DNA of 64,000 bases, from NCBI GenBank assembly GCA_963920765.1, contig OY987251.1, positions 13,519,219-13,583,218 on the forward strand, written 5' to 3'. The translations under genes and the position numbers were made by a program. Shown in pieces: positions 591 to 62,114 of this stretch. Origin of the DNA: Ulota crispa. Taxonomy: Eukaryota; Streptophyta; Bryopsida; Orthotrichales; Orthotrichaceae. Each line of letters starts with the position of its first letter. The first letter of the stretch is position 1. Below the pieces are notes generated by a model. That model did no database searches. It saw only the letters and a program-made list of their open reading frames with translations, and was not told the DNA's origin.

Positions 591-1083
591 TTAACTCCTA
601 AAGGAACATTGTCCCTTTGGGGGACAAATGGTATTTCACGCATGTACCTATGGCTAAATTGCTTTGTGTGATTTTTTAAACTTTTATGAATGATAGGGAA
701 TCCAAAGATCTATGTGGGCATCAAAACCACACCTACCTGCAAACTAAAACTTCTCATAACTTTCATCTCACCAATAAAAATTGATTGATTTAAAGCTCCC
801 CATGTCTATATAAGTCTATAGAACTTGTTTCAGATTTTTATTTTTAAAAAATGCAGTTTTTAAAGAAGTTTTTGGGTTGCATGGAGTCCCTTGTTATCCA
901 TAAATTCATTTTTAGCTCCTTCAATAAATGTTGGAATAAAGAAAATTTTAGATGCCCACATAGAGCTTTGAATTTCTCATCATCCATAAAAGTTTCAAAA
1001 ATCACTCAAAGCAATTTAGCCATAGATACATGCCTAAAATCCCATTTGTCCCCCAGAAAGACCAAAAGTCCTTTAGGGGTTAA
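591..1083. mobile_element. TTAA-flanked MITE, family A (piggyBac-like signature)
   Basis: TTAA lies at 591-594 and 1080-1083. The body starts CTCCTAAAGGA and ends TCCTTTAGGGG. The ends are long inverted repeats of about 130 bp, sharing a GGGGGACAAATGG block, a CTATGGCTAAATTGCTTTG block and a TATGTGGGCATC block in opposite orientation. It carries no transposase. The subterminal sequence recurs at the left ends of the 1.84-kb and 30.25-kb elements and the right end of the 25.97-kb element, so these are related families. Confidence 0.8.
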
Positions 1084-1603
1084 GAGAAGCTAGAACAAGG
1101 GACTTTGAGTAAGTAATTTACTTGAAAAACAAGCCAGTATTACAAAGATAAAGCTAATCTCTCTTATTTGAATATCATGCTCTTTGTATAAACTTAAGCT
1201 AATAGGAGTTGCTCAAGGAGTAATGCTGGCTCTTTTTTGACATTCTGTTACATGGATTCTTCATTGTAACAGTCACAATACTTTGAAATCATGAATAATA
1301 AGTCATATATCATTGTGCTTATGCTTATAGACTCACTTAGTGATAATAAATAATTGAATTCTAATTTTGAATTGAAAATCAAAAGAACTGATATTGGACC
1401 TATAAATAAATTTTTGTACTCTTCACTTGGATGTCAACACTGAGTGTTTAGAAACTCTCAGTTGATCGAAATTGATAACTTTTGGATACAACGTGCCCTT
1501 TATGACAACGTTGGGGAAACATATAATTAATTTCAGTGAAGTTCATGATATTCTTGAAGAAATTCGTTTATTCAAATCTCCAACAAGAGCCAAACCATGG
1601 ACC

Positions 1604-1839
1604 TTAACCCTTGAATAACCATAGGGCATAGTATATACATTGATGTATAATTGTCAAACATGCTACCAATAAGAAATTTTAAGTTGGGATCTCAAGTAGC
1701 TCACTAGAATTGCATTGATTTATTCTCCAATTTTTTTGTTGGTTTTAAATGTAATAGAGGTGTGGATCCATTCCAAATATAAGAAAATTACCCCGTATTG
1801 TATTGGTCGCAAAGGGCCTCTCGGTTGTTTAAGGGTTAA
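1604..1839. mobile_element. TTAA-flanked MITE, family C copy 1
   Basis: This is about 235 bp between TTAA sites at 1604 and 1836. It is homologous along its length to 8996-9264 and, reversed, to 49758-50011. Shared blocks are TAGCTCACTAGAATTGCATT and AGGTGTGGATCCATT. Its right TTAA is also the left TTAA of the next element, so the two abut with a single shared target. Confidence 0.7.
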
Positions 1840-2943
1840 CCTCTAAAGACCCAAGTGGTCCCTTAGGGGCCAAGTGGGATTTCGGGCATGTACTTACAGC
1901 CAAACCACTTTAGGTGATTTTTTGAAATTTTTATGCAAGATGGGGAATTCAAAGATTTGTGTGGGCATTTGTTTTTTCTTCATTTTAATATTTATTGAAG
2001 AAGTTATGCATGAATAACTAAAAAACAAGGGAAAAGGGGGCAGCCCAAAAACTTCTTTAAAAATTTCATTAGAAAAATAACATTTTGACATTGGTTATTT
2101 AAACTTACATATATGTGGGAAGCTTTGAATCAATTGATTTTGATCGACAAGTGAGAAGTTTTAGTTTGCATGTAGGTATGGGACTCCGAAACCTCCTTTC
2201 CTCTTGTTCTTTATAAAATTTGGTGCTTTACTTTTTTGAGCTCTTTTTGTATTTGTTTTTTGACTTTTTTTTTCTAGGTTGTACTAGACTACAATTCCTT
2301 GGTTTCCACCATTTGGATCTATGTAATCCAAATTTTTGAATTTCTCTTAAATCCTCCAATTTTGCCTAGTGTATATGCAAATTTCATGACCTTGCGACAT
2401 AAATGCAAGATTTTACAAAGAATGATTCACACCTCCAATTCATTTGATAATTCTCCCACATTTGCTTAACTTGGTTTTCTACATGAGAAAAAAAAACTTC
2501 AACTTTGTGTAGAGAATTTTTTTTGATATATATATCAAGAAAAACATGTCCTAAACAACTGGTCCACGACAACTGCAAATGTCCTAAACGACTATACAAT
2601 GACTCAATTACAATAAAATTGAGTTGTTTAGGACATTTGCAATCGTCATGAAGCAGCCGCTTCGGACAAGATTTCTTCTAGTGATAGGAGAGGTCAAAGG
2701 CTTCTACAATTTTTGGAGCAGCACGGATTTTTTTAATTTTTTTTACTTTTGATGTCAATATTTCACTCTTGTACATCTAGAATGAGCTGCTCTTTTTTCC
2801 CACAAGTACCTTCCATAGTCTAGGGCAATATCTTATGGTTGGATTTCCAAAAAGCTTTTTTTCTACCATTCTACTCATTTCCCCAAAAGTGACAATTTTT
2901 AGTGACTTCCATGGAAAAAAGTGCTTGAGCGTTTAGGGGTTAA
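1836..2943. mobile_element. TTAA-flanked element, family B copy 1 (1.1 kb)
   Basis: TTAA lies at 1836-1839 and 2940-2943, and the right end is TTTAGGGG. It is homologous over its length to 30253-31171, with the same internal order: the GGGCAT block near the left, a T-rich tract in the middle, and CCCCAAAAGTG then AGTGACTT near the right end. Inside, 2549-2658 contains a smaller inverted repeat built on CATGTCCTAAAC/GTTTAGGACAT. No transposase is visible, so it is non-autonomous. Confidence 0.75.
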
Positions 2944-4080
2944 AGATTTTGTTGGTGGCTCCTATTGACTTCTATCGGCTTCTATTGACCTATTTTGTGA
3001 AATTTAGAGAAGGCCTTACATTTACACTAGGAAAGCGTCAAATTTATGGCTTTTTCTAGAATTTGGAGAGAATTTGTACTCCACCCACTTGAAATCCTCT
3101 TCACAACATCAATCAGCTATGACTCTTAAACTTAGCCAAATGTAGCTTGGTGCTTCAAATTTTGACAAGCCAAAACATGTCTTCTTTCTAACATTAGCCT
3201 TGCTAAACTTCCTCTAAATTTCAATTGAAACTAGCAATTACTCTAATCATTCATGATTAACTCAATTAACTTTCAAAAATACATTTCAAGTTATAAGAAT
3301 ACATTTTTACAAATTCACTCCAAAGAATATATAATGCAACAAAGTTGTTGTATATAGACATGGGAAAATTGATCCATGCCAAAAATTAATTAGTGTATCT
3401 CATGGCAAAATTTATATTCAAGCCCTACAACTCTAAGTTGGGCTTGCATTGTTATTAGTAATACAAGGCCATGTTGTGGTCTCTTGTTTGTCCATTAAGC
3501 CAAAAATCCTCCATACCCTTGGAAAACCTAAACAAATTCCAAATATATCTGTGTGGGCAAAATTCCTTACAACCACTATCTACCCACCATAAGTTTTTTC
3601 ATCCAAATAATGTAAACATTGATTTGTACAGTACCCTTGCATATCTTTGCGCCCAGCCCATTCTACCATTCCAAAAATTTAGCATTTTAAACAATACAAT
3701 TGACAGATTTGTATGTTGAATCATAGACCTCTAATTCTTACATGATCCTAATCAAGCATACCAAATTTTGAGTTCCAAAAATCAAAATCCTATTTTGGTG
3801 AATCATTTTAGATAAAATTCATGGTTTTACTTGACAGTTGATTAAAAAACATTGGTGATGAATTTTTGAGATTTGATTGTATGGGTATGTAGGCATCATG
3901 CGCACGTACATCTTTCTTTTGAACTAAAATCTTCAAAAAGTTTCAAAATTCCTTCTATAGAGATTTTAGTGTTAGGTCCATTATGACCAAATTTAGTACA
4001 ATAGATATCTCCATTCTTTAATTAGTTTTTGGCAAAATAAACATATTCCTCTGCTCAAAGGTACAAACTTAACCACAGTG
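2944..4080. other. AT-rich stretch, no gene recognised
   Basis: Both strands hold only short open frames with no recognisable domain, splice pattern or repeat family. The 82-codon frame at 3471-3719 has no feature that supports it as a gene. Confidence 0.5.
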
Positions 4081-4265
4081 TATGAGCTTCAAGAAGTCGT
4101 GCTGAAGCTATCATTTGAAGCTTCTAAAAGCTATCATTCGTTTGAAGTTTCAAGAAGCTATCATTAGTGCTGAAGCTATATCTATTGAAGCTTCTCAAAG
4201 TTATACCTATCAAAGCTTTGAGAAGCTATTGTTAGCTTCAGCATGAAGCTATTTAAAGCTTTGTG
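4080..4265. repeat. Degenerate GAAGCTTC-rich tandem repeat
   Basis: Irregular units of about 30 bp are built around GAAGCTAT and GAAGCTTCT. The alternating GAA/TTC spacing resembles heat-shock elements, but no gene follows that would make use of one likely. The simplest reading is a decayed tandem repeat. Confidence 0.5.
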
Positions 4266-4726
4266 TTGAAACTCGTTTAACGTGCCCAAGCTATTGGCGC
4301 AAGAGATTGCAAGTTTGAGGTGGAGTGCGGAGGTTTGCAAGCGCTGTCCCGTGCACTCAGGTAATTGCTGCTCTGAGTGACCGTGCTGGACAAGGCTACA
4401 AAAACTTGAGAGATCAAGTTTTGATTCTTCCTCCTTCTGTTATATTTCTCTGCCATCATGTCGTCATACGTTTAGTTACAGCTTTTATGCAAAGCCAATA
4501 AGGAGTTTTGAGTTATCTAAGGCTGTTTTGTAGTCTTGTTTCTCCTATTATATTGATCATCTTTTAGTATTTTTGGTCTAACCTGCATAATATTTTAGTA
4601 TTTTTTATTTTTATTTTGTAGCTAGAGTTTCTGTAAATCGTAAATCTCATATTGCTGGATATGCATGGAATACACGGTTCTGAATTGTCAGTCTCTATAT
4701 TTTGATTAGATTTTATTTGTTTTTCT

Positions 4727-6482: not shown

Positions 6483-6604
6483 TGGACTGGGTCCGTGTTT
6501 GCTTGCCTTCCGTTGTTTTTGTTGTCTTTGAACTCTCAAAGAATGTAGCATCAGTTTTTGAAAATAACAGATGTTACGAAACCGAATATAAAGTTTATAC
6601 TAGA

Positions 6605-9858: not shown

Positions 9859-10510
9859 TTAACCCCTAAATGCCCAAGGCCTTTTTGAACTTCTTGGCAT
9901 TTTCAGGAAAGTGAACTATCAACCAACCTTTTCATAAATCTCATCAAGTTTTTTTTATACTGTAACCATACAAACTTAAACTTGACATGTTAGAGATTAC
10001 ATGGAAAAAGAAAACACAACAATATCACTTATAGTTTGAAAAATTATAATGTTTGAACATGAGGGTGTTAAAATTGCAAAAGTGACTTGAAATTTTCTAA
10101 TCCTCATTTCACATGTAAAATCTAAAAATTTGGTCATCAAAAAACTATGAGGTTTAAAGTCATTACATGTTTAATCTCAACTAATTTACAACTTTCAAAA
10201 TCTACTCCTCTATTTTTTAGAATGAATTTCTAATGCAGATTTTTCTCTAAGCTCTTGTGTATTTGAGGCTAATTTTCAAGATCTTTCAACACTAAAAAAC
10301 TCAAGATTGCAATGGACACCCTTGTACAAAATCTTGAATAGAAAAATCATGAACATTCATTTTCAAAATCAGATTTTGATGTTGAAAATAGACTTAAAAA
10401 CAAACTAGTGTTCAAAAGAAAATACCAAAAATAGTGATTTGATAAGGTTATATGCGTCTTCCAAGTTTTGCAAACACCCAAATTGGGTGCCTTGGGCATT
10501 TAGGGGTTAA
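9859..10510. mobile_element. TTAA-flanked element, family D copy 1
   Basis: TTAA lies at 9859-9862 and 10507-10510, with ends CCCCTAAATGCCC and GGGCATTTAGGGG. It is the same orientation and structure as 50200-50845. The copies at 24905-25555 and 54710-55351 are in the opposite orientation. All four are about 650 bp and lack coding sequence. This copy has the best preserved ends of the family. Confidence 0.85.
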
Positions 10511-11580: not shown

Positions 11581-12444
11581 TTAACCCCTAAAGGACTTGA
11601 TCCATTTTGAAATGGTCAAACTTCATGTCTAAGCTCAATTTTGCCTTTTAAAGTGTGTTCAAACAACAATTTTGTATTTTTATTGCTTGAAACTATGAAT
11701 GATATATCACTGCAAGAAATTTCAATTTGTTTCATGAAAAATTGTAATTGTTATCGTTTTTTTTTCAAAAAATGAACATAAATAAGTTAAAATAGAAAAA
11801 AAAATCCAAATCACTTGAATTGTTTTTCAAAAGGTACAAGTAGCATTAAAGATAAGTGTGAAAAATTCCAACTAGTTATTTTATTTTTTACATCCAAAAC
11901 AGCCATAACAAAGAATCTAAAGTCAAATTTGCCTATCAAACCAAGTTTATCCTTATATTTAATCAATTTAATCAATTTTGATATTTTTCCCTAAAAGACA
12001 CATTCATTTTTGATTTAAATTGATTTTTTCAATAAGCTTGAGGGAAATTTGGAATTATTGTGCTTTTTTAAAGCTAAATGTGGAATTAAAATCATATCAA
12101 TTATAATATATATTAAAAAAATCTTCAATTTTCATTATAGATGAATGGTAGAATGAGAAACATCATTTTGTAGTTTAAATTTAAAATGCATTTAAAGAGT
12201 TGAAAATATGAATGAAAAACACACCATATTGTGTTATTTGAATTCTAACACTTTGGAGCTTTCAATGGCAATAACTCTTTTGATTTTTGACATTTTTCAA
12301 AAGAAAAAATGGAATTGAAAAGAAACTTGTCAAGTATAATTTTCTTAGATTGAACCACGTACCAAAATTTGATATTTAGAAAATTACAATCAAGGTTGAC
12401 CAAGGCGCATCCACTTTTTGGATGCACAGACCTTTAAGGGTTAA
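11581..12444. mobile_element. TTAA-flanked element, family E, abutting a splice acceptor
   Basis: TTAA lies at 11581-11584 and 12441-12444. The left end is CCCCTAAAGGAC and the right end CCTTTAAGGG. It has no coding sequence. The right TTAA is followed by only CAG before the transporter exon at 12448. The element's terminal sequence therefore now stands where the intron's pyrimidine tract should be, and the left TTAA follows a T-rich tract. Confidence 0.75.
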
Positions 12445-12447: not shown

Positions 12448-15400
12448 GTACCAATGTATATTGGAGAGATCTCACTGAAGCATTTGAGGGGAGCTCTTGG
12501 AACAAAGAATCAGGTTTTGATTTCTTGCTCTTTTCTAGTTTCATGAAATTGCTGGTTTGTTTTTAGATTTTCCCTTTAAAACATATTGAGTGAGGTTTAG
12601 GGTTTAACAAGGTTGATTACTATTTTTTCTTTGAACCATGGACTATTTTGCCATTACAATCGGCATCACCCTTTCTTACATCTTCAGCATGTTCTTCAAG
12701 TGGCATTTTCTTGCTTTACTTGGTACATATTAGAAACTACCTGCTCAAGTTACCACATCTCATTAATTGCTTTAAAGCTCTGAGTAAATATTTTTGTTAG
12801 CAAATCAAAGAGGATTTCAACTCAGAATCCTTAAGGTGTTTTCAAAGTTTTAATTGACAGATGTTTTAATAGCAGCAAATGGTCTGATGTTTTGAGTCGT
12901 TTTGAATAGTTAAAAATCAATATTATGTACTTATTTGTGCAGAATTTGGAATGTTGCTATGAGGTGTGATTATTCTTTTGTTTCTTGGCAAAGTGAGGTA
13001 GGTTTTTCAGTAAATGAAGCTTGAAAAAACTCTTCTCTAGACTTAGAATTGATTGCTTTATGTTTGAGGCCTTTGGACAAAAACATACACATGCCATAAT
13101 ATATTATTTTTTCCAACTCTTTGAAGTTTGTATAAAAAACAGGAGATGTTACACATGGTTTTCCAAAATTCTCTTGCAGGCAAATTTGAAAACACCTTCA
13201 GATATATGTAAAGCACTTCAAAAAATCTGCAGATATTTGTAAAGCATTTCACTTTGAGCATCACCAAAGGCATTTTCTTCCTTGGGTGGTAAGGCTATTT
13301 TTGTGACGTTATCAACCTAACATAACATGATTTTGTAACCCTTCCTCATTATAAGTGTTCAAAGTACAAAATCCAAGTACTGTACATTAGACATGTAAAG
13401 TAAATATCTATATATAATAAAAATATGGACTTATTGTTGATATTATTTTGTTATTGATTCTTATGTTAATAAAATAGAGTGCCTATTTAAGAAAACCAAC
13501 CAACTTTTTTTGGGAGGTTACTTTCCTTTGCATTTTCAAGGGGTATCAATATCTATTGCACCTTTCTAGAAGCTTTTCATTGAACAAAGAATGACTTTGA
13601 AAAGGATTAAGGGCAGAGTTATGTACCTTCGGCATTTGGCACAAAGGGATTAATGTTATGCATCTCAAATACTTCTGTATTGACTTTGATTACTTTGGCA
13701 GGTGTTGCACCAGGGATTGCATTAATTGTTGGACTTCTCTTTGTTGTTGAAAGTCCTTGATGGCAGGTGTGTTGTATTACTATCTTGCAACTCTTGCTTT
13801 TGTTATTGTTATAGAAAGCAGTGCAGTGTTGGCTTGATCCCATACTTGTGGTTTCTAGCTGGTTTGAGTGGTTTCCATTATTAGGTTGTATATTTGTGCC
13901 GTAGGAGTTTTTTTCCTTTTCTCAAGATGATTTCAACAACCTTAATCCTTAAACGTCCGAGCGTCCCTTTGTGACCAATACGAGCAATTTTTCATGTATT
14001 TGAAGAGGCTGCCATGTGTGGAATTCACTAGGGTTTGGAGAAGTTAGTATTTGCATAGTCCCCCATGTTTTGGAATGCTCAATGGATTTAGCAGAGTTGT
14101 GTGCATTATTTAAAGAATTGTTGTACAAATTGAGGCATACGCGTACATATTTCAGTGGGAGACTTGCAAGCCCGTAGGAGAAGCGGGTTGGAGAACGGTT
14201 TTGGTGTCTCCAAGGATGCCCATGTGGCATAGGATTTGGCACAAAGTTTGGATTTTGCGTAGTGTAACGACTCAGCTTTGGGAACGGTTGGGTTGTCAAC
14301 CCTTTCAAACCGACGCCAACTTGACGCTTCCTCCAAGCAGATTATTTCTTCCTCTGATCAATTTGAAGCCTCCTTATCTGAGTGTAATGACACAAATCTA
14401 TATGAGTTAGATAAAGATACTGCCTTTTAGACTTCACAAGTCAAGAACATGCATACATACAACAACAAGTACAAAACAAAAGACTTGTAACACACATTCA
14501 CAAATGCATTAACTAGAATTTACATGAACCCTTCTCAACGTAAGTAGAAAACTGGTAAACACTCATAGAGATCAACATACACAAAAATTGAAAGATAACC
14601 TTAAATCTTATGTACAATTGCACCAAATCCATTAGCAAGGAAGAAATTCTAATAATAGCAACACACTTATTCATAAGGGTGGTTGCTATTGATATGTGAA
14701 TTTGCCAAGAAGGGATTGCCAGGTTTTTATTATAAGAAGAATTCATGTATCTGTCTCAACCTGCAAGCTTGAGAAAGTAATAGATTCATTGATACATATA
14801 GCACACAAATTTATAGCAAGAATCTTGTTCTTAAGCTCTTCAATCTAACACAAGCTCACTTCTAAGCAACTTTATAAGGAGTACTTCAATCTAAAGCTTA
14901 AGGATATATATTGAGTATTTAGAAGTGCACAAATACAGTCCAGCTCATGCTACTATGTCCCACAATATTGACAAATGGTTTAAAAGGTTTTGTACATTAG
15001 AGCTTAAACCTTGAAATAGGAGTCAAAGATTTTATGCAAGCACAAATTTCAAAGGCAAGTATGCACATGTATTGAAAATCTTACCTTATCCTCCCACCAA
15101 TATATGGATTCCACTCTTGTATAAACCCCCCCAGCAGAAAACCATGGCATACCCCACATAAGTTCCCTTGAAGTGTAGAGGCCTTGTTGTGAATATAATT
15201 TATTCTTGCTGTAAATTTCTAAATTTGTCAATATAGATGATCCTTCTACAGTCAGTTTGAGCTGTCATGACAAAGGATCGGGTAGAATGGACATGGAATT
15301 TGATTCACGCAGGCACCAAGCTTATTCTCAAAAATACTATGCGCTAGCTTTGTTCTGAGAATTGAATTACAGCACAGTTTTTACACCAAGTCATCTACTA

Positions 15401-18400
15401 TTCAAAACTATGTAAAAAAATGATTTAGCACAAATAAATTGTTCTTTAGATTTAAAATATCAGATCCCAATAGGCTCACAATAGATGTCTACCACATAAT
15501 TGCACTAAAAAGTTATACAAATCTACTCAATTTTGGTAATACCCCATTACAGAGCATATTCCAAGCCTCTAAGACCTAGAAGTAGGAACACTCTTGATGT
15601 CACAACAACGTGAATCCGTGTTACAAAAGAAAGTTGCGTGAGGAGCGTTGTCCCAACAACGCTTATACTCTTGAGCATACAACCACGGAAAGACAATGCA
15701 ACAGCCTTTCATCCTAAGAATAAACATCGTTGCAATACAACCACGACAGACCACCGAGTCCAGATGTTGCTATGTAGTTGTAACACGTGGTGAGCTAAGC
15801 AGGTGTCCTTCCATTCTCAACGGGCATTGAGATTCTTGTTGGACAACGTGCACAATGAAGACATGTATTGGTGGGAAGATGCCGATGCGCTTGGCACATA
15901 AACCTGCAGAACCCTGTAGTACCATTGGCTTTTGACTCAAAAACACGTGCTATGATGTTCCAATTTGTCCTTGAAATCCAAAAATCCATCCCATTTCAAT
16001 TGCTTTTGAAACCCTTAGAAGGTGTGTCTTGCTAGCAGCTCACGAACTTGCACATACGGATCAGGCATTCCACACTTACTCCAACCATCATTTCTTCCCA
16101 AAAGAAAAGGCCTTACACAATAGGTGCTTGCTCCACTAGCTTAAACCCGTGAACAACACCACCTTCAGGCATTGTCGTCCAGGTGCACTCACAATGAGTG
16201 GCGTCCTCCTTGCATACATGCTCGACTCTGAACTTGTCAATCACCAGTGTCACAAACCACTCCCAGATTTTCAAAGGCCTTGGCAGGTGCCTTCTCCGCC
16301 ATTAGCCGGAGTTCTATCCCACAATTCCTGCGCCCTATACATGCAACTCTGCTTGCAACCTAAGAGTTTCCTCAAATCTTCCAACACCACGTCGCTCACT
16401 ACCCGCTTTTGTTTACAAGCCAAGGCTCACTGTCACAAATCGTAAGGGATACATCCAAAATCTAGGCAAACTAGTAGCATCACAAGGACAATTTGGAACA
16501 CCAACCTCCTTTTTCTAAGTTTTAAAATCGAAGAGGATCTGGCACGTCAAAATTGCACCCGCAATAGACGCCATTGACAACACCTGCCAAGATTGTCAAT
16601 TGGCTCTCAACAAAGCTTTAGAAAGGATCAAACCTCCGCAAATGCCCATCCACATCATCTAATTCCACGCACCAATTGTGCCTTTGTTCCTGAACACCCT
16701 GCTGCATCTAAATTCCACCAATGCGCCACCATGTAGCCTCAAAAACCACCTCTCGATCGCATTTGCCGCCACCATCATTTACATTGTTGCCACAAATCAC
16801 CGCATGCACCACACTTACCAATCCAAGCTACATCCTCTCGCGCTCTTAACTATTACCGCACCAACCGCGCCATCTAGCAAGCACACCCGCCATTTTGTAT
16901 GCTCAATTGGTAGCCACCGTGGTGTATAAGAAACCTATAACCCCTTTTCTTCTGGGTGAAAGCACAAGAATTGCATCCATACGGTTGGATTGACAAATCG
17001 TATGGCCAAACTTCCGCCACTTCAAGAGAACACATTGTATATGTACTCTGGGATGCCCTAGGTATGGTTCCCTAGGGACATTTAAGGATTAAGTATGTAC
17101 TATTTGGATATTATATGAGTAAGGTCTGAGTTTTTGAAGCTTTGGAGAAGTAGGATTTCAAATAACAAGCCTAGACTACTCTCAAACCATGAGAATCATA
17201 TCTACAACTCACTAAAAGTGTCTTTTATTCCTTTTACAAGTCATGTATTTGGATGCATTTGAAGCATACAAAGTGGCTTCTTATATGAATAAGCCAAGGC
17301 AGGAAAAAAAGATGAGCTTTCTTCATGTTTGCAAAAGTTGCGAGACAGAGATTTCAACATTGCCAATGAGATTGCAGACATCTAGGTACAATTTTTTTCT
17401 CATTTCGTAGCTTTATCTACACTTTTCCTTTACTCATTTGCAAATTTTAATTTCAAAATTTCTTATGGATTTTTTTGGCCAATGTAGGCGGCTATGGAAG
17501 CCTCAAGTGCTCAACCCAATGTTAGGTTGAGCAATCTGAAGCAACAAAAACTTTTTTGTCCACTTGTTGTGAGTTTATTGGTCTTCACCATGCTAATGTT
17601 TTGATTTCAAACCTTTTTACTCATTCTAGTTGGAAAATCCTCCAAACTCCCATTAAAGTTTACACTATATTCCAACTTTGCATGATTGTAAGGGCAAAAA
17701 GAAATACTAAGGGAAGCCTTAAATAATTTAATCCAAAAACATTAGTCATGGACTTGTATTTTGAAATTTGGTCTCCTTTTTTATTGAGCAAAGTCCTACC
17801 TCCTTGGTGCTAAATTTTCCAAAAATTGCGGCATTTTAAGTGAACTAGGTCTTTGGGACTGGGATGTAGTGTGAATTGCCAAATCCTCATTTTCAACTCT
17901 CAATCAATTAGATAGAGCTGAGATCTTAGAGGAACTTGGGATGTGAGACATAGTGTGAACCACAAATAAATGTTTTAAAAACATTGATTTATGTTAGACT
18001 TACCAATTATAATGCCATTTTTTGGTCAATTGTAATAGTCGTTTTTGGCAATTTCAACCTAAACCCTACCAATTTTCTTCTATATTATTGCGAACATTGA
18101 GTGACACTTTTCTTGTGAGAAGGTTGGAATAGGTTTAATGGTTCTTCAGCAGTTCTCTAGGATCAACGCAGTCATGTTGTACTCCAATTCAATCTTTTCC
18201 ACAATTGATACGTTGTGAATATTAGAGATTCTTCATAATTTTAAACCTCTGTTTTGTGCAAAATATGCAAGTAAGAAATAATTTAATTTAACTTCCATAT
18301 AAACCGTTATTTTGCTCTGGTCTAAATTTCTTAATACTTTAGCTTGATTCTCATAAACCTGAAAAAAATGAATAAGAACTATGTTGTTTGAATTAACGCA

Positions 18401-36579: not shown

Positions 36580-36607
36580 GTGACAATCATCAAAGATTTG
36601 AATATAC

Positions 36608-41601: not shown

Positions 41602-43973
41602 ACTTAAAGTGGGCCAAAAGACCATCATGTATCAAGAAATCCCTCACACGGTGCATTTGAAGGGGATGGATTATGCATAAATAAGATAAAAATATATAAA
41701 GGAAAGAAAGAAAAAGGAATAAAGAAAGAAAAGAAAAGAAAGAAAAGAACAAAATAAAATAAGATAAGAAAGAGAGGTGAGATTTGCAATAAATTATATT
41801 TGAATACTATGTATATATGCACTAATGTTAAAGCCATTTTTTTTAACAAGAGTTGGGGTCATGAAAAATTGGGGCCTTTTGAATTAAAATTTCAGCTCAA
41901 ACGGTTTCAAGGATGACCCCAAGCAATCACCTAACATAACAAAATAACCATGTCTTGTCCTTGGCTATTTTTATTTATTTTTAATGTCTGTTGTGGAAAT
42001 TTTGTCATTGAAATTTGTGGTTGATTGATTTGACCAAGCCAATAGAATTGGCCTAGACACCGCACCTCCTTTCTCTTATCTCCATACCATCCCTCTTTTC
42101 TAGAGTAACATACTTTTTTAATTGGGGTTTATTTTGTAAAGAATTTTGGATGACCCCAAAGTAAATACGCAAACAAAAGAAATATTTTTTTAAGAATAGA
42201 AGTGATGTGAGTTTGCATTCTTATTTTAATAAGAATTTAACGGGGGTCAATTTTCTTCTATAAAGACCTCAAGACCAAAATAATCAAGGTAGTTAGTTGC
42301 ATACCCGTAAAAATTTCAGCAAAGAAGGAAAGAAAAAGAAGGAGATTAGATAGAGCCATTGATATTTCTATTCCATCCTATGACATTGGCCATCTAAAAA
42401 TAATTTTTTTATTCAAAAAATTGAGTACGTTCTACTGAAATCTAACAATGGTTTGGAGCTATGATTTGGCCTTTTATTTCTTGACCGACCTAGTATTTTG
42501 GAATTAGGGTCATATCACATCTTGTTTGTTAAATATTGACATATGTTTGAAAATTTTGGCCTTAAACTCATAGTGTAAATGCTTTTCAAAATATCTACTA
42601 ATAAGAGGCCAAAATCTAGACTTGAAAAGGTTTCAAAATGGTCTTGGCTCTCAGTTTAAACTTTAAAGCAACCCTTGTTGTAAAGTACAAATCAAGATGA
42701 TAAAACTTATGATTGACATCCCAACTCTCCAAGGTTTGGTTCAAACTAGCAATCGGACAAAACACAAAAAGTGGCACCTTGTCCCATCTTTCATCCTCCA
42801 TAGCACTTCCACATCATGCAAGAATGTTGGAGAAGAAATTTGTTACAAAGCAAGAGTGTTCATATATAGGATAGGTTTGGAGCCACCCTCATAGCAAGCC
42901 CCAAAACTTCACTATCTTGTTGGCTGACGTTACCATATTGATTAATGACATGACAAATTGAAATACCGGACAACCCCTAAGTGTGGACACTTCATTGGAT
43001 GAAAATGATATTTCAACCAATGAGGTTTGAGATAATTTTGTCCGGTTCCTAGTTTGCATGGGGTCTAAGTTCCATTTCAATAATATACTTCAACTTTGTT
43101 GAATTATAGAGGACAAGAATACACATACATGTGTATACTAATACATAAATTTGTATATCACAATCTTAAATGCTTTTTGACCCTAATTCTTTATAAAAAT
43201 TTAGTAGGAATACATTATAAAGTGAATCTAAATATAAAAATTTAGTAGGAATACATTATAAAGTGAATCTAAACATAATATGAAGCTATGAGTTCCAAAC
43301 TTTCAAACTTCAACCAATTAAAAGATTTGATGGAACTTAAGACCTATAACATTGAGAGTGGAAATCATTAATAATTCATGCCATTTTAAGTTAAGGGCAT
43401 GTTATATTTTTAGTTCTAAAATGTTTTTGTACAATGAATTCAAAATAAGAACAATTTTCGCCCAAAGTCTAATGATCAGTTTGAATGGAGAGTTTGTTGG
43501 AATTGAATTCAGCCAACAATACCATGTGAGTGCAAACAAAGTTCTATAGAATGAAAATTTTAAGGATAAGCACATTCCAAACACAAGTCTAAAACCGCGC
43601 TCTAGTTAATCTAGATAATTTGCATATACCTACTGTAGAATGTTTAGCACTAGGACACTAGAACAAGAATATGAAATTAGAGTGTGGATCGAATTGAAAT
43701 TTTATTTTAATAAATTTTGAACTATTGCAACTATTGCATACAATATTCAATATCATTGTAAACTTCACCTGGTCTCAATTCTCAACAACATTTTAGTTGC
43801 ATAAGATCAAAAGATCACACGATCATACTTCTCAATAAAATTTGTTGAAATTTGTTTGGCCTAAAATTCTTTTGTGTCTACATGGTCAAATGGTTCAAAA
43901 TTGACCTCTCTCAATAAAATGATCAGTAAATCAAAATTTTGATTTTTTTTTAATAATTTAACCTTAACCCTTT
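41602..43973. other. AT-rich stretch with simple repeats, no gene recognised
   Basis: It contains a purine tract of GAAA type (41697-41780), the second copy of the 35.0-kb dispersed repeat (42730-43070) and a 42-bp direct duplication (43193-43275, AAATTTAGTAGGAATACATT). Short open frames show no recognisable domain. Confidence 0.55.
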
Positions 43974-44878
43974 AAAGACCACACATATTTTCCCAAAACC
44001 CACTAGAAACCGCAGCAGTAAGATTAGATGTGCATTTGAAACAAATATGGACCCAATTTGAATAATCTAACCATATAAATGTGAAGGACACCTTGTTTGT
44101 TGCAATGCATCAAAATTTTAGTTAGATTTACCATTGAAAGTGGAATATTATAATGATTGAGTGAGCCATATATGGAAAATCTTTAGTTTTTCATGCTTGT
44201 GTGGTTTTGAATGGTAGTGCTTCATGCAAGCTTTGATTGAGAAGAGTCTTACATTTCTAAAAAGTAAGGTTTCCCACCTTTCCAACAAGACTAGTTTCAC
44301 TCAAAATAGAAAAAAATAGCAATCACAAGGTGTAGTTAAGTGGACAAAAAGGGGCAAAAATCCCGTTTTCTTTGCTACCCTAAAACAATTCTATAAGAAA
44401 TTTGAAATTTTTTATTGAAAATCCAATTGGTGAAACCAGTCAAGAATTGGCCTTAAATGTAGGATGAACTTTTTTCAAAATAAATTAATAGCATCATTTC
44501 AATGGATTCTCAAATAGTACAATTGTACAACTACCGTATAGAGAAACAATACAAGCGTATTTCTTGAGTAATTTGAAGTTTTTAAAGATTGCACAATTGA
44601 AATGTAGCATTCTTCTTAGATGTTTGATGTATTGTGTTGTTGCTTTGATCCATCTTTGACCAAATATGGATACGTATTTTGATGCCATGATGTATAAACA
44701 CCATTATTTATCAACTCCCATATCTGATTCTATTGTCGTTTTTTGGGTTGGACGCAAAATTCTGGTGATCACAAGCATTGATCAAGATCATTTTCCAAAT
44801 TGTTGAGCGATTTTATTGTATAGGCCAAAAACTACTCTCCCAAATCAAAATATGGTTTGGTGGTCTCTAAATGGTTAA
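43974..44878. mobile_element. TTAA-flanked element, family F copy 2 (inverted)
   Basis: TTAA lies at 43974-43977 and 44875-44878. The left end is CCCTTTAAAGACCACA. The whole length is the reverse of 33562-34494. Open frames starting MASKYVSIF occur in both copies but are interrupted at different places, so no conserved protein is supported. Confidence 0.75.
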
Positions 44879-46596
44879 GATGTATTTTTTCACTTGCTTA
44901 TGTACACTCTCTCAAGAATTCAAACTTTGTGAGGGCACATTTCATTAGATTATAACACTCAAACTAGGGGCAAATTTTTTTTGAAGCTTCTGTAAGGTGT
45001 CAATTTTTTCTTTGGTCATTCAAAATGACATCTTCCCCTTTATGATTTTCTTATGCAATTTAAATTTCTTGGACGTAGAGCATGAAGTTGGTTATATGTC
45101 TCACAAATTTCACAATCACGCAATGCTTAATCATAATAGAAAAAATATGGGAGCATGAATTGCTTTGTTCAAATTGTCATTACACTAAGAAAACTTTAGT
45201 GAAGAGATTCTTATAAAAATAAATCTCAATTACAAAATCCATAAAGTGTAAACCTATAACATCATGTAGAGTACTTGCCAAAGTAATTTTTTTGTAAAAA
45301 TAAAAAGTAAAACTCAATTTATTACATAATCAAGGAGAATTGATTGCAAATTTTGCCCATTGACCAAGTCATTGTAAAGTACTTTCACAAGTAAAAAACA
45401 AGTCCATAATGACTAAGTGACAATGATTGCAATGATTAAACAACAAGTAAAAAATGATTGTAAAATGACTATACAGTCATGGTTTAGTTATTGTCACATA
45501 GTCATTGTGAACCTGTTTTTACATGTGTTTTGAACACTATTTGGGCAACACCCTTCCTCAATCCCTTTGTTTTTGATTTTTTTGAGGATGTCCATGTTAA
45601 CATCTAAATCACATTTAATACCATATCTCACTTAATAATTATTCAATTCCACTTTTTTAAAAGGTATGCAAGCTTTTTAGTATGAGCACATACACCGTCA
45701 TTTTCACAATCTTATCTTATGTATTTACTGGACAAATGTTTGCTCAATTAACCTAAAGGCCCAAAGTGGGCTCCTTGGTCCTTTACGGGTTAAGTACCAA
45801 CAAACCATGAAGAAAAAAGTCACTTTCTTCAAGATACCAATTCAAATTAGAGTTCCATTTTGTTGGGGACAACGACGTTGAGCATTTTGTGGAATTTAAT
45901 GATACTATTTTTAATGAAAGAAACGTGAAAAGTTACATTGAGTTGGTCTTTTACGTCAGCTGTAAAAATTCACGCGTGTAGAATTTACACCTCTACAAGT
46001 TCCCAATCCTACGCCAACGCCCAACTTTGTGTGGTTCTAGACGGGCAATTAAAATAACTTTGTGTTTTGTTCAAAAAGAATTTTAGTACTCAACTCTAAA
46101 CTGGACTCCTCTTTTTGTTACTCTCAATTCTTGGAGCAAAGTTCCAAATTCTAGATGTCAAAATTTGTTAAAAATGTTGCCTTCACGGTACACATTTTTA
46201 AGCGAGCTGGGGCTAGAAACTTGGAACAGTGTGATGTTGTAAGTCCCAGTTTGCAACTTTTCAACCAAGAAGATTTGAAGAATTCACTGGGACATGGAAT
46301 GTAGTGTGAACTACCCTCATTAATAACCACCTCCAAGTAGGTAACAAGCAATTTCGTTGCAAAAAACTTGTGCCTCTATAACATAGGCTGGCTTTTTGGG
46401 TAATGTACCTACTCAAAACTTCCACAATATAGCTTCTCTTAGTTAATCGCCAGGGAGATTTTTAATTTCATTAATCAATATAATGGATTTCATCCATCAT
46501 TTCGTCATGGTTGTGCCATTAAGAGATATTTCAATTTTTAAAATCTCATAATAAATAAAAACCATGTTTTTCACATTTTGAGGAAGATTAGGCAAC
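44879..46596. other. AT-rich stretch with a minimal TTAA element
   Basis: No gene is recognised. The only clear feature is the 46-bp TTAA pair at 45748-45793. Confidence 0.5.
45748..45793. mobile_element. Minimal TTAA element: two termini only
   Basis: TTAA-CCTAAAGGCCCA at the left and TGGTCCTTTACGGG-TTAA at the right are joined by about a dozen bases. It looks like an internally deleted element reduced to its ends, related to family B by the GGCCCA/GGGCTCC block. Confidence 0.6.
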
Positions 46597-46860: not shown

Positions 46861-46873
46861 ATGATAGATATTC

Positions 46874-50199: not shown

Positions 50200-50845
50200 T
50201 TAACCCCTAAATGCCCAAAGCCTATTTGAGCTTCTTCGAATTTTCATGAAAGTCAACAATCAACCAACCTTTTTATAAATTTCATCAAGTTTTTTTCAAC
50301 GTTACAAATTTAAACTAAACACGTGAGAAATTACATGGAAAAAGAAAACACAACAATATATTTCTTATAGTTTAAAAGATTATAATGTTTGAACATTAGG
50401 TTGTTAAAACTACAAAACGGATTAAAAATCTTCTAATCCTCATTTCACATGTCAAATCTAAAAAGTTGGCCGCCAAAAAAATACAAGGTGAAAGGTCAAA
50501 CATATCTAAATTAATCAATTTACATGCTTAAAAATCTACCTCTACATATATTTTAAATGGATTTCTAATGTGGATTTTTCTCCAAGCTCTAATGTATTTA
50601 AGGCTCATTTTTGAGATTTTTCAACACTAGAAAACTCAAGATTGTAGTGGACACCCTTATACAAAATCTTGAGTAGAAAAATCATCAACATTCATTTTCA
50701 AAATCAAAATTTTGGTATTGAAAATAAACTTCAAAACAAACTTACATTGAAAAAAAGCACTAAAAATAGTGATTGGATAAGGTGTTATTCATCTTCAAAG
50801 TTTTGTAAAGACCTAAATCTTGTCGCTTGGGCGTTTAGGGGACAA
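50200..50845. mobile_element. TTAA-flanked element, family D copy 3
   Basis: The left TTAA is at 50200-50203 with CCCCTAAATGCCCAA. The right end is GGGCGTTTAGGGG with the target decayed to ACAA. It is homologous over its length to 9859-10510 in the same orientation. Confidence 0.8.
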
Positions 50846-53658: not shown

Positions 53659-56600
53659 ATGGGGGAGAGGTGTGATTCTTTTGCTTTGGAGGTGGACGAA
53701 ACGCCGTGGAACGGCCAGGTATTTGCAACAATCAACCAAACCTTCTACCCCTTTGGGTTTTTTTGAGTTTTTAAGAAGGAAAAACAAACAAATGTTTTTG
53801 AGTGGTTACTATAGATGTGTTAGGATTTGAAATTATAGTCCATTTTAGTAGTTTTCTTTTAGATTTAGCTTGAGTTTTTTGTGAAATTTACATTTGGGAG
53901 CATGTTGGGTTTTTCTCATGAAATAATGAGTTAATTAATGAAATAATGGGCTATCCCATGAAATAATGGAGGCGAAAGTTTGATTATGAGAGAAGTGGAG
54001 TTCCTTTTTTGCAAATTTTGTATTCAAAGAAGGTATAATTGTAATGTTTCCGAAAACATATAGTACAAGATACCATAAACCAACAAATGATTGATTAGAA
54101 ATGTCAAAAGAGTTGTCAACTTTGAATGTCAAATAATTTCTTTTTTTGATAAAAAATAGTTCTAATTTGTTTTTGTAGCTTTTATCCTAAGACCTTTTTA
54201 CTTACAATTACAAAGAGTTTTAACTTATTGAGGGGTGCTATGAATGAACAACTCATATGGTTGATAGGTCTTTGTTGGTTTATGCTATCTTGTCTTGCAC
54301 CATAAGAGTTCCATTGTCCCCAATAACAAATTTTTCAAACTCTAGTGTTTTATGGAATAGTTCATTTTTTGTTTTGTTTTCAAAATTCACGTTTTTGTAC
54401 ATTTCTATAAGCGAGTAAATGTGATTTTTGTAATTAGCTCAAGTGAGTGGGTGTTTATTTGCTATTCTATTTATTGTGTATTTGTATGTACTAGATTGGG
54501 ATTTTTTTGCAAAATTGAGCCACGTTTTGTAAAACCTCGTGCTTATAGATTTTGGTCGGTTTGTTTGTTGAGGAGCAGGAGTATTGGGTACCGACTTCGT
54601 TTGGCCACGTGTTTGTAACCGCGTGTGGAGACCAAGACAAGCCCGCACTTCTCACGTACCCCGACATTGGACTTAGTTGTAAGATTTCCAACCAATCAAA
54701 TGAGTCCTTTTAATCCCTAAATGCCTGCGGCACCAAATTTTGGTGTTTGCAATATTCTGAAGTTCAATAAATTTAACTAAGTTACTATTTTTTAATAGTT
54801 TATATTTTGGATTTATTTTTTGTGTAGTCTAATTTTAGGATTAATAATTTGACTTTGAAAATGATCAATTATGAATTTTTTATTCAAGCTTTTGTGTAAG
54901 GGTCTTGATTTTCTTTAGTGTTGAGAGCTCTTGGAAGTGAGCCTCAAATACATCAGATCTTGGAGAAAAATTTACATAAATAATTCATTTGAAAAACTGT
55001 AGAATTTTTTTTGAAAAGCTATAAAGTGATTGGGGTTATGTATGTTATTTCCTTTAACTTTATATTTTTTTTATGGTCATTTTTTTAGATCCAACATGTG
55101 AAAAGAGGATTCAAAGGCTTCAAGTCATTTTTGTAGTTTTAACACCCTCATGATTAAACATTATAATCTTTCAATCCATTAGTGATATTGTTGTGTTTTC
55201 TTTTCTTGTATGACCTCTAACATATCTAGTTTGAATTTGTACGGTTACAATTCAAAAGAACTTGATGCAGCTTATTAAAATGTTGCCTTTTTGTTCAATT
55301 TGAAACAAATTCCTAGAAGCCCAAAAAAGGCCTCAGGCATTTAGAGGTTAAAATAGCTTTTGTTATTTGAGTCTAGTCCATACAAACTCTAAGAAGAAAA
55401 TATAATTATTTAGTTAAATGCAATTGCTTAAGGTGGAAGCATTCATAGCCAACAACACCTTATACACACCCAACTAATAGGATGTGTTATTTTCAATGTC
55501 AGCGTGGTTAGGTGCATTGGAATACGTTCTTCTGTCCTTTCTAAGGTTGGGATCACTTAAGTCATGTCCTCTATCTCAAAGTAAAATATGAAGTAATGAG
55601 CATAAAGTAATTTGGTTAGTATTGGAATTGCATGAGTTTAGAGGTTGGCAACAAGTTCAAAGCACTTTTGACTCCCATAATTCACAATAATTATAGTAAA
55701 ATTTGGAATCCCAATTTTTCTTATCTTCCTACATGGGAAAAATATTTGTTGCCTCAAACTCCTTGTAATTTGTTGCGGAATCACTTAATTTATTGGGTGG
55801 GTGCTCCCACTATAGCTAAGTATTTAGCCAAGTGTAATTATGTAACCAAGCGCAATTATTCAGACAAATACTGTTATTTAACTTGATTTCAACAAAAACA
55901 AAAGAAAAGGTTATTAAGAATTGTTAAACATTGTACATGTAACTACCAAACCATCATAAACATTATGCAGCATTGTGCCATAATTGACAATACTGTAGCA
56001 ATCAAATGTCTGAAGCTACTTTAATGTTACATTTTTAAACAATTTTGGACTATGTAAGAAAATGTAGACTATACAAGGTAGCCGTGACTTGGAGGTATTT
56101 TTGATATCATACACATCCTCTAGATTTTTACTCCCATATATGGCTCTCTATCAAAAGATATTTCTCATGCAAATTAACAATGCTATAGATTAAAAAAACT
56201 TCTCATATCTGTTGGATTCAATTTGTAGACTTTAGATTGTTGCAAATACAGCGTGGATCTTCATAAGCTTGAGGGTCTTTGTAAGCGTGGGATGTGACAA
56301 TTTGTGTTTGTCTGCATTGACAGCTTTCTCTTGTTTTGAGGGACTACTTTCTTCTCCAGATGCTTCCTCGGTGCTCTTCCACAATTTCTGCATTTTCCAT
56401 ATCGAGCCCCCTGGCCATGAGGTTAGTGAACTTCCACTTGGGATTTTTTACTAATATTTCTAGTATATCACTCCATGAAACAATTGCCGAGTATGTGGAC
56501 TCGGGAGTGTGAAATCTCTATTTTTTTATTTTTTTGTTCCGAGAAAAGATAAAGAGAAAATTTTATGGGTACCCCTAAAGTTTGCCATATTTGTATAGGT

Positions 56601-59600: not shown

Positions 59601-62114
59601 TCCCTTCATTCTAATGAGAGTAACATGAGAATAGATTGTTTTTACCTTATGCTAGGTCTCTTTCAAGGGATAGTTGCTCTTCAACACGACCTGAACTGTG
59701 GCAATGGGTTGTTTTGTATTACAGGCTCTGATCAACCTCCTTTACTTCTGCGGCATGTCCGGGTTTGTCAAGGAGATACTGCTTCTACGGTATTTCAGTT
59801 CGGTGAGTAGCCAATTTGCTTTTGATTAAGCTTGGCACAGAAGAGGAAATCCATATGAGACAATGATTAGGTAGAGCATCCGCTTATTTATGAAGTCTTA
59901 TTTAAAATCAACTTCTTCAGGGGAGGGAAAAGAATTTAGAAGTTATCGTAGCAAAATGATGAGAAGCTTAATATGACAAGAGTGTATTGTAGTATTATGG
60001 GAAAAAAAAGGTCGATGGCATGATACACCAGCTTGAAAACATTGTAGTTCACCCTCCACAAATAGGTGCATAACTCAATATCTACCTAGTATCCCGTCTA
60101 TATCCTTAACAGGGAACTTTTTCTTTCTTTTTTCAGGAAGTTCGTGACGCAGCAGCTTCAGTAGAAGAGAAAGACGTGCTTATGACCATTCGCCGAGTAA
60201 GTAGCCTACAACAGCAATTGCCTCTATCCCACATCAAAAAGTATAAATGTCATATGTTTGTTTAAAAGTAATTAATTCTTGGTATAATTCTTAATCCTCT
60301 ATATACCTTTGAACGATTGAAAATTTTTAAATCTCTTTTTGATAATCTCCTAACTTCAGTATTCTGACAACTTCAGGTCATAACTCCATTGTACATAAGA
60401 AATGCATTCTCTAAAATGACGACACCAACATGCTACTACTAATTTCAACAAGTGCATCAAAACTCAATATGTTTTATTAACCATTGCTCACTTTGGGGTA
60501 CAGGTATAGACAGTAAAAAAAACAACATTAAACTGAACATTAAAAGGAACTATTTCACAGAGTAAACTATACAATCTTCATCTATAAAAGAATACAACCT
60601 TTTCTATATAAAAAAGAATACAAGCAAGAATACAATCTTTTTCTCTATACATAAAAGAATACATCTTTTTGAGCTGCTTGGTGTGATTGACTAAGAGAGA
60701 GTGTCATGGTGCAACTTCCAATGATTTGTTTGTTCTTTTACATGGAAGAGAAAGGTACATGCTTAAAGTGGAGAGAGGGGTACATACATAAAGTAATTTA
60801 TGTTGAGGTTTTACGTTAAATCAAGGCAATGGCGTTTGTGAGTTAACCAATTGCTCATGGTTTAAATTTTTAAATTGACTATATTTTGTAACAAGATTGC
60901 TAGTGCAAAATTTGCTTATTGCATGGATATTGCTGTTGCTTTAAACTCGTGTGAAATGAGAGAATTAATTATTTGTGCTTACAATATTGACTTATTTGGT
61001 ACTCATGGTTGGGTATCTTTGGTGAACTGTGCAGTCCATGGATGACAGACGTAGCAAGAATGTAATGCATTACCTGCAAGCGGTTCACCAACGGAGAGAT
61101 CTGACGGAGAGCTTGAAGAAATTGAAGTGCCGAACGCTGATATTGGTTGGTGATCAGTCACCTTTCCACCGGGAAGCATTACACATAAGCAAGGCCATGA
61201 ACCGACGGTACAACGCATTGATAGAGGTAAGATCTCCGGCTCTAGAGCGAAGTATCTTCTTTCCTTTGTTTGTTTTTTAATATTTTCTTAAGAAATGCAA
61301 TACACTCAGACCTCTTTCAGTACGACCCTCTAAAATGACACTCTGGAGTATCTTGCAAACTTCTAAAGAGGATTGTAGCATACCTATCACACATTCAAAA
61401 CACATCTGAAACTGAATTTTTGGGGAGGTGGAACTTCTGTAATATTTTTCAGTAAATTTTCCTTGAAAGACGAGAGGAATTGGCATCTAACCCAAGTTGT
61501 TTTATAATTTTTGGAGCTTTGTGGAATTAGTTATGAAATTTTGAAGTAAAAAGTTCATAGCATTTTAATCCTTAAAGGATGGGTTGGTCACCGCGGGTTG
61601 GTTGCGCGATGAGTATTTCCAGAGGACGTCTTTTATCCTCCTTGTCCTTTAAGGGTTAAAATGGTGCACCTCCTCAAATGTATAGTGCATTTACATTGTT
61701 GAAAGAATATGAAAAGCAACATGTATAAACGGAGTACATTTTAGGAGATGCACCATTTTAGAGCCTGCACGCTTTTACAACCTCCTACCTTAGTTTATTT
61801 TTTAATTTTTTGGGTACCAGTCAGATTAAAGGGGCCAGGGTTGCACCAGTCTCCTAGATTGACTCAAGCATTCTTTGCAGGTTGAAGGAGGTGGGTCTCT
61901 TGTAACAGAAGAGAGACCACAAGCAATGCTAGTGCCAATCTTGCTATTCCTCACCGGCTATGCCTTCTACCAAAGGCCAGTAGTCCCTTCACCGTCCAGC
62001 CCCAAAAGCCCTTTGAGTCCACCTTGTATGCCTGCTGAACTTCTTTCACCTGAAAGCCTTGGACTTAAGTTGAAGCCTATCAAGACGCGCGTGCCTTCAC
62101 CTGTAAATATTTAA
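53659..62114 (+). CDS. NDL: NDL protein (N-myc downregulated-like, NDRG family), 352 aa, 10 exons
   Basis: Coding exons are 53659-53718, 54579-54678, 56324-56421, 57508-57596, 58217-58277, 58845-58931, 59725-59802, 60137-60196, 61035-61226 and 61881-62114. Together they give 1059 nt, in frame, with gt-ag at every junction and stop TAA. NDL proteins have an alpha/beta-hydrolase fold. In Arabidopsis they bind the G-protein beta-gamma dimer and influence auxin transport. Family landmarks are [13 protein letters not shown] (near 40-50), [24 protein letters not shown] (about 147-155), [17 protein letters not shown], and the conserved tail [15 protein letters not shown] after a Pro/Ser-rich linker with several SP sites. 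The nucleophile elbow reads GVSGG. The start chosen is the ATG that gives MGERCDSF. Length is normal for the family (about 345-350). Six introns carry transposons, yet the frame is intact. Confidence 0.93.
54063..54296. mobile_element. MITE family S copy 2, in NDL intron 1
   Basis: Inverted ends ACAAGATACCATAAACC and GGTTTATGCTATCTTGT enclose a shorter version of the 49176-49592 hairpin (CCTAAGACC, TTACAAAGAGTTTTAACTTA shared). Confidence 0.65.
54710..55351. mobile_element. TTAA-flanked element, family D copy 4, in NDL intron 2
   Basis: TTAA lies at 54710-54713 and 55348-55351, with ends TCCCTAAATGCC and GGCATTTAGAGG. Orientation is opposite to the 9.9-kb copy. It begins 32 bp after the exon 2 donor. 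Confidence 0.8.
56553..56866. mobile_element. MULE-type foldback MITE, copy 3, in NDL intron 3
   Basis: A perfect 9-bp direct repeat, AAAAGATAA, flanks the element (56544-56552 and 56867-56875). This is the target duplication of Mutator-like elements. Ends are AGAGAAAATTTTATGGGTA and TATCCATAAAATTTTCCC. Confidence 0.85.
57701..58006. mobile_element. MULE-type foldback MITE, copy 4, in NDL intron 4
   Basis: Ends are GGGAAAATTTCATGGATACC and GGTATCCATGAAATTTTCCC, a perfect terminal match over 20 bp. Flanks are A-rich (TTAAAAAAA / TAAAAAATG), so the duplication is ambiguous. It occupies about half of the intron. Confidence 0.85.
59286..59604. mobile_element. MULE-type foldback MITE, copy 5, in NDL intron 6
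   Basis: A 9-bp target duplication TTAATTCTA / TTCATTCTA (one mismatch) lies at 59277-59285 and 59605-59613. Ends are TGGAAAATTTCATGGATACC and GGTATCCATGAAATTTTCCC. Confidence 0.85.
61315..61780. mobile_element. MITE family R copy 2, in NDL intron 9, with a TTAA element inside
   Basis: It aligns with 38001-38314 on both sides of an insertion at 61565-61659. Outer ends are CCCTCTAAAATG and CATTTTAGAGCC. The left part carries about 65 bp not present in the other copy. Confidence 0.65.
61565..61659. mobile_element. TTAA-flanked mini-element, family H copy 2 (95 bp)
   Basis: TTAA lies at 61565-61568 and 61656-61659, with ends TCCTTAAAGGATGGG and CCTCCTTGTCCTTTAAGGG. It is inserted in the CTTAAAATGG motif of a family R MITE. 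It is related to 19918-20283 by its subterminal sequence. Confidence 0.75.

Follow-up and report, generated by a model that had tools for sequence, protein, structure and literature searches.

Short TTAA-flanked elements with piggyBac-type ends in a moss-like plant genome and the transposase-bearing elements that share their tips

The piggyBac transposon is a main tool of animal genome engineering, and most descriptions of its superfamily come from animals, fungi and protists; in animals, piggyBac miniature inverted-repeat transposable elements (MITEs) are mobilised in trans. The available excerpts of published work give CCCTT, CCCTC and CCCAT as tips of animal piggyBac elements (PMC10813416), state that piggyBac-like elements exist in plants (PMC8086355, PMC10813416, PMC10004981), and include piggyBac in a list of angiosperm MITEs (PMC10004981), while the excerpted repeat tables record 1230 copies (122 kb) for Ceratopteris and a single copy (75 bp) for Stipa. 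Among the open-access literature matches listed, no description of piggyBac elements in mosses was found in titles and the opening lines of abstracts, and the excerpt of one moss paper, on Niphotrichum, matched through the word "piggybacking" only. In this study, we analysed a stretch of 64,000 nucleotides of contig OY987251.1 (positions 13,519,219 to 13,583,218; hereafter the window), in which a first-pass annotation, made from the letters alone, had noticed a swarm of TTAA-flanked elements with inverted tips and had proposed them to be piggyBac-like elements of a plant. The superfamily itself is already known, and what is new here is its host and scale.

Inward-pointing arms composed of TTAA and the tip CCCCTAAA were counted in the window and in 100 dinucleotide shuffles of it. 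The window contained 12 exact arms against a shuffle mean of 0.01, 25 against 0.59 when one mismatch was tolerated, and 39 against 6.35 with up to two mismatches, and outward-pointing arms numbered 0, 0 and 6, respectively. With the wider tip CCCYTWAR (at most one mismatch), 37 arms were found on TTAA versus no more than 2 on any of 11 other palindromic tetramers, which occur at 58 to 833 window sites each (TTAA, 505). The symmetry of TTAA and inverted tips on which the first-pass annotation was built was thus well reproduced by the 25 inward near-exact arms, with none outward.

Pairing of the arms by hand gave 17 elements with a total of 12,947 bases, plus one-ended remnants (Table 1). Their size range, 46 to 3151 bp, is the one annotated earlier, and the annotated 23 elements in about 14 kb proved right in order of size, although the exact number was not reproduced. 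In three of the 17 (30253, 33562 and 50200) the right-hand TTAA is mutated, and one TTAA (1836-1839) is common to two neighbouring elements, 1604..1839 and 1836..2943. Tip-like sites for which no partner was found in the window include 8996, 12607, 19918, 22233, 24009, 31694, 31929, 33329, 33565 and 36391. Self-BLAST of the window sorted the interiors into mutually unrelated groups (9859/24905/50200/54710, 591/1836/30253, 27328/29400, 33562/43964 and 1604/8996), and further elements had no relative inside the window. This pattern fits the earlier count of at least ten families, the grouping being by eye. Related copies were about 70-85% alike, which suggests that the copies are mostly old. A Pfam search of seven window open reading frames (ORFs) gave no match.

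The searched genome assembly (G000) comprises 274.8 Mb. The exact 12-mer was found 30,972 times (15,477 and 15,495 on the two strands), whereas the reversed pattern occurred 77 times (41 and 36). The density of exact ends is 0.11 per kb in the genome and 0.19 per kb in the window, which is therefore richer than the genome average. A query for the longer tip CCCCTAAAKGMCC, with any four bases and a non-C in front, hit 5993 and 6088 sites against 2 and 6 for its control. For the 100 sites listed first, which all lie at the beginning of contig 1, the four bases in front were exactly TTAA at 82, one base off at 13 (95 with at most one mismatch) and more divergent at 5. The opposite exact end lay inward within 1.5 kb at seven of the first eight genome sites (L001-L008, the exception being L004). 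A second tip, CCCTTTARNGACC, was found at 828 and 846 sites versus 10 and 11 for its control; the first 100 listed of these CCCTTTA sites formed 19 inward pairs, mostly 908-925 bp long, whereas pairs facing outward or the same way were absent within 1.5 kb, and TTAA stood at 32 of the 38 sites that were listed with their letters (hand count).

The first-pass annotation had called for a search for a DDE_Tnp_1_7-type transposase with matching ends, and had named genome copies lacking TTAA, or a full-length relative encoding a transposase of another superfamily such as PIF/Harbinger, as grounds against its reading. Most of the listed genome copies do show TTAA, and a search with the DDE_Tnp_1_7 profile PF13843, in which 116 of 528 first-look candidates were scored, returned at least 120 genome matches (best E value, 1.3e-73), one of them in a full-length relative (L032) that carries the tip at both ends. 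In 14 control genomes, PF13843 had no match. Among the 120 matches listed, 10 were free of internal stops (hand count). A tree of 25 PF13843 domains resolved several deep lineages, two of which are central here: lineage A (L012/L032, L022/L042 and L046) and lineage B (L011/L031, L025 and L026). Both fall in one clade (support 100/100) with L016, L023 and L024, within which the branching order was not resolved. A search with the L046 fragment recovered an identical twin, lineage A copies at 69-81% identity, with a further piece at 57%, and lineage B at its three loci with 46-48%. Against transposases in the Protein Data Bank (PDB), a lineage A fragment matched piggyBat (E value, 2.4e-18) and piggyBac (1.9e-16); its first two Asp residues align with those of both enzymes and the third with that of piggyBat, positions which we take to be the catalytic DDD triad. 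A Cys-rich C-terminus is visible in the translations of L032, L046 and L031, with no Pfam zinc-ribbon match.

The ends of the L032 element link tip and transposase. Read in the direction of the transposase, this element begins with TTAACCCCTAAATGCCTAAA at 1990 and finishes with the inverted TTAACCCCTAAATGCCTAAG at 7735, a length of 5746 bp, so that TTAACCCCTAAATGCCTAA stands at both ends around the PF13843 transposase. The 5' tip of L042 and the 3' tip of L046 are the same as those of L032; the 3' tip of L042 and the 5' tip of L046 were looked for in the fetched loci and not found. In lineage B, TTTAGGGGTTAA lies 1.9 kb past the domain in L031, and the 3' flanks of L025 and L026, fetched after the L031 result, carried it exactly at 1.7-1.8 kb, giving three of three loci; judged from the genome density, the chance of an unrelated right tip in a 1.4-kb stretch is about 0.08. 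Four further transposase-bearing elements, with tips of their own on TTAA, are listed in Table 1. Weaker end pairs were seen in L036, L041 and L048, no convincing pair was found in L035, L037, L039, L040, L043, L044, L045 and L047, and the L038 element runs off its fetched stretch. The five best-bounded transposase elements measure 5.0-6.0 kb. In 19 transposase loci, ten CCY-CCY pairs (score of at least 12) stood on TTAA, spread over eight loci, whereas 11 other palindromic tetramers yielded none among 67,500 pairs. Two of these ten are additional pairs within one locus, and the L031 and L046 pairs include the tip of a neighbouring element, so that six loci remain. Reading L031 as a 6-kb element from 917 to 6937 was accordingly rejected, since 917-1842 is a separate short element, and so was 665 as the own left tip of L046.

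CCCTAAA is the plant telomere unit, and the CCCCTAAA tip includes it. This likeness is probably due to chance, because the tips of the other lineages read CCCTTTA, CCCCTCA and CCCTTGA.

To relate the window elements to these lineages beyond the shared tip, bases 13-70 of 35 window ends were compared with 12 transposase-bearing ends, 974 other TTAA flanks of the window serving as controls, on which the threshold was set so that at most one control passed per reference. Eleven of the 35 window ends matched past the tip, versus 10 of the 974 controls. Eight of these matches are clear: those at 2943, 25971 and 31171 to lineage B, and those at 10510, 50845, 54710, 55351 and 31929 to lineage A. The last of these opens a longer correspondence, in which window 31929-32144 aligns to L042 1871-2080, in the 5' part of lineage A, and 32243-32615 aligns to the 3' regions of L042, L032 and L046, the subterminal part of lineage A, with the transposase missing between the two blocks. 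To judge from these alignments, window 31929-32615 is an internally deleted lineage A copy.

Sites lacking an insertion were sought for three elements. When the joined flanks of the 95-bp element at 61565-61659 were searched with one TTAA between them, all 40 scored loci spanned the junction at 85-88% identity and were equal in length within 3 bases; since 40 of 3658 candidates were scored and the search favours the closest matches to an empty site, this result speaks to empty sites being common and not to their share. Repeat copies at window 38029-38306 (the 38184 region) and in L036 likewise have no 95-bp element, with CTAA at the junction. The other two elements are taken up below.

We regard it as very likely that the window elements are non-autonomous cut-and-paste transposons of the piggyBac superfamily, namely MITEs and internally deleted copies. 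The ends and their TTAA, the way they pair, the presence of the same ends on a transposase-bearing element, and the empty sites of one insertion are direct observations, and the piggyBac-type assignment of the first-pass annotation is upheld by the TTAA flanks, the CCY tips, the PF13843 transposase inside the same ends in L032 and the 11 past-tip matches. In the mechanism we propose, a piggyBac-type DDD transposase supplied by 5-6 kb elements elsewhere in the genome would recognise ends starting CCCYTNA, excise the DNA between them and insert it at TTAA, leaving TTAA on both sides. Short copies would need only their ends, so that unrelated interiors could spread.

Several observations weigh against this reading. 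Recognition, excision and the mobilisation of unrelated interiors in trans, like transposition itself, are what we infer from sequence. Twenty-four of the 35 window ends have no past-tip match to the sampled transposase-bearing ends and have the tip alone in common with them, and three of the eleven past-tip matches (R1083, L1836 and R26901) are weak and point to another lineage. The four CCCTTTA ends at 33562, 34494, 43964 and 44878 match none of the 12 reference ends past the tip, so that it is the tip by which these families are linked to the L033 lineage. Among the 20 loci fetched whole, only in L032 were both CCCCTAAA ends of the transposase-bearing element itself seen; the lineage B ends are known from the 3' side, the left tips at 917 in L031 and at 665 in L046 are those of short elements next to them, and the lineage A copies seen have stops, frame breaks or truncation. 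Of 15 near-exact ends in the 20 transposase loci, only 4 were paired within 1.7 kb inward, against 2 outward, some of the 15 belonging to 5-6 kb elements. The element with the cleanest empty sites (61565-61659) has altered tips, TCCTTAAA/CCCTTAAA, and no transposase match; for 9859-10510 the corresponding test returned a single weak junction-spanning locus (83%, reaching 16 bases past the junction), and for 54710-55351 the flanks are nearly single-copy, which makes the search uninformative. Finally, because TTAA is palindromic, the flanks alone do not show whether all four bases were duplicated or fewer within TTAA.

The 24 window ends tied to no transposase would also be expected if another TTAA-targeting superfamily had produced the elements and the piggyBac transposases of this genome were bystanders, Kolobok and Sola3 being superfamilies that also target TTAA. 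We consider this improbable: both ends of a piggyBac element, L032, have these tips, the tip stands at the 3' side of all three lineage B loci, window 31929-32615 appears to be a deleted lineage A copy, and the transposase found inside these ends is PF13843, no search aimed at Kolobok or Sola having been made.

A second alternative, equally improbable in our estimate, keeps the piggyBac assignment and attributes all tip-sharing families to a single transposase lineage, much as the first-pass annotation had suggested in proposing one transposase for unrelated interiors. The part of that proposal that stood is its premise, the tip being common to interiors that do not align; against a single mobilising enzyme, two lineages only 46-48% identical, A and B, both use CCCCTAAA, and each resembles a different set of window families in its subterminal sequence. 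The CCCCTAAA families have thus apparently been served by at least two lineages of transposase, and the CCCTTTA families share only the tip with a third. As lineages A and B have the same tip but differ in subterminal sequence, each probably served its own families, with crosstalk possible. A third alternative, that the elements are Tourist-like MITEs of PIF/Harbinger with a 3-bp TWA target resembling TTAA, has in its favour that plant Tourist MITEs are marked by TAA/TTA duplications (excerpt of PMC10004981), and was rejected as barely credible, since all four bases are kept (exact TTAA at 82, and at most one mismatch at 95, of the 100 listed tips) and the full-length relative encodes PF13843, Harbinger genes themselves not having been searched for.

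Read as members of the piggyBac superfamily, the moss-like elements agree with piggyBac of Trichoplusia ni and piggyBat of Myotis in having a DDE_Tnp_1_7 transposase with aligned Asp residues, TTAA on both sides and tips starting CCY. They differ in length, at 5.0-6.0 kb against about 2.5 kb for the classic elements (excerpt of PMC10813416), in the further long charged ORF upstream of the lineage A transposase, and in their moss-like plant host, in which short copies leave tens of thousands of ends. Short gene-less copies with shared ends are likewise known as animal piggyBac-derived MITEs; unlike in those, several transposase lineages with different tips coexist here in one plant genome. Whereas other plant reports consist of small amounts in repeat tables, this genome combines a transposase-bearing element with matching short elements and more than 30,000 exact ends.

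The finding of at least 120 transposase matches and tens of thousands of matching ends in a land plant suggests that plants are open to massive colonisation by the superfamily, and this genome offers natural end/transposase pairs from a plant background. Beyond this, we give about even odds to a broader picture in which many piggyBac lineages have radiated within one moss genome, each having a CCCYTNA variant and a cloud of non-autonomous copies of its own, together possibly occupying about a tenth of the genome, a share extrapolated from a window richer than average. If so, related transposases would have diverged in end recognition side by side, and a single genome could reveal the rules by which tips are recognised.

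Table 1. Paired elements, remnants and single tips in the window (window coordinates), and tips of further transposase-bearing elements
Feature	Coordinates	Strand	Tips and remarks
493-bp hairpin-like element	591..1083		tips CTCCTAAA / CCCCTAAA; ends mutually inverted, 84.7% over 137 bp; transposase-end match of right end marginal
236-bp element	1604..1839		tips CCCTTGAA / CCCTTAAA; copies at 8995, 49980; no transposase-end match
1108-bp element	1836..2943		right end matches lineage B 3' ends, score 23.0 to L051 3' end; controls that high 0/974
652-bp element	9859..10510		CCCCTAAATGCCCAAG tips at both ends; right end matches lineage A 5' end
864-bp element	11581..12444		tips CCCCTAAAGG / CCCTTAAAGG; no transposase-end match
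3151-bp element	13942..17092		tips TCCTTAAACGTCC / TCCTTAAATGTCC; one ORF inside without Pfam match; no transposase-end match
Exact tip TTAACCCCTAAA	19918..19929	+	partner end not found
Exact tip TTTAGGGGTTAA	23998..24009	-	partner end not found
651-bp element, 9859 family	24905..25555		degenerate tips TCCCAAAG / CCCCAAAG; no transposase-end match
931-bp element	25971..26901		exact tips; left end matches lineage B 3' ends
437-bp near-palindromic element	27328..27764		tips CCCCGGAA / CCCCTGAA; no transposase-end match
232-bp element	29400..29631		relatives: 27328 element, L041 893-1124; no transposase-end match
919-bp element	30253..31171		right end matches lineage B 3' ends, score 26.0 to L051 3' end; controls that high 0/974; right TTAA mutated
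Apparent lineage A remnant	31929..32615	+	5' end and 3' subterminal block; transposase missing; right tip not found
933-bp element	33562..34494		CCCTTTAA tips; 81% to 43964 copy; right TTAA mutated; tip common with L033, nothing past tip
Exact tip TTTAGGGGTTAA	36380..36391	-	partner end not found
915-bp element	43964..44878		CCCTTTAA-type tips; no match past tip
46-bp minimal element	45748..45793		TTAA at both ends; no transposase-end match
646-bp element, 9859 family	50200..50845		right end matches lineage A 5' end; right TTAA mutated
642-bp element, 9859 family	54710..55351		both ends match lineage A 5' end
95-bp element inside repeat	61565..61659		tips TCCTTAAA/CCCTTAAA; empty sites elsewhere; no transposase-end match
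L029 element			tips on TTAA CCCCTCATCGCC/CCCTTCATTGCC
L030 element			tips on TTAA CTCCTAAGCGCC/CCCCTAAGCACC
L033 element			tips on TTAA CCCTTTAGGGACC/CCCTTTAATGACC
L034 element			tips on TTAA CCCTTGACCGCC/CCCTTCACCGCC

The host is most likely a moss, and in any case a land plant. LEAFY marks a land plant or a close streptophyte, and the genome contains a LEAFY SAM domain (E value, 1.2e-27), besides five weaker SAM matches. On a contig of 112.5 kb (C157), two full-length psaA/psaB-type genes lie side by side, one of which scored best, at 1679 bits, to PDB entries 7ksq, 6l35 and 8htu, which we take to be photosystem I of Physcomitrium patens, the next entry scoring 1641. The plant host named in the first-pass annotation is confirmed by these two sets of matches. 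A LEAFY-SAM-like stretch was also noticed at L050:1462-1740, near a frame at 307-921 that by eye resembles a BED zinc finger.

Some features of the transposase loci deserve mention. Upstream of the transposase, L032:5302-6591 (minus strand) and L046:2284-3675 each hold a charged ORF of 430-464 aa with no Pfam match; by eye, the two have the stretch TP.LSL.ALKR.L in common, and this ORF may be a disordered N-terminal exon or a second gene. At G000:C1:1180709-1181995, two adjacent piggyBac transposase matches lie in a 563-aa open frame which, unlike most copies, has no stops and is possibly an intact or domesticated gene. On C2, transposase fragments at 36765124-36766008 and 36779670-36780554, both 100% identical to the query, lie 14 kb apart in opposite orientation, which suggests a recent inverted duplication.

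The window also contains features apart from the TTAA elements. A repeat of about 300-340 bp is present in six self-reverse-complementary copies (20279-20601, 41300-41602, 56550-56866, 57700-58007, 59277-59610 and 62692-63017) and probably represents a separate MITE family that has nothing to do with the TTAA tips. For a 2.15-kb insertion at 21019-23176, L029 shows an empty site near 6802-6807, and the duplication that goes with the insertion is short and contains CGTTA; related sequence lies at window 4723-6481 and in L047. Just right of the element at 33562-34494, adjacent genes for tRNA-Gly(GCC) and tRNA-Asp(GTC) occupy 34573-34755 on the minus strand. Within 36424-37026, a unit of about 165 bp is present three times, with starts near 36424, 36608 and 36865, and a tandem array with a period of about 71 bp spans 46872-47158.

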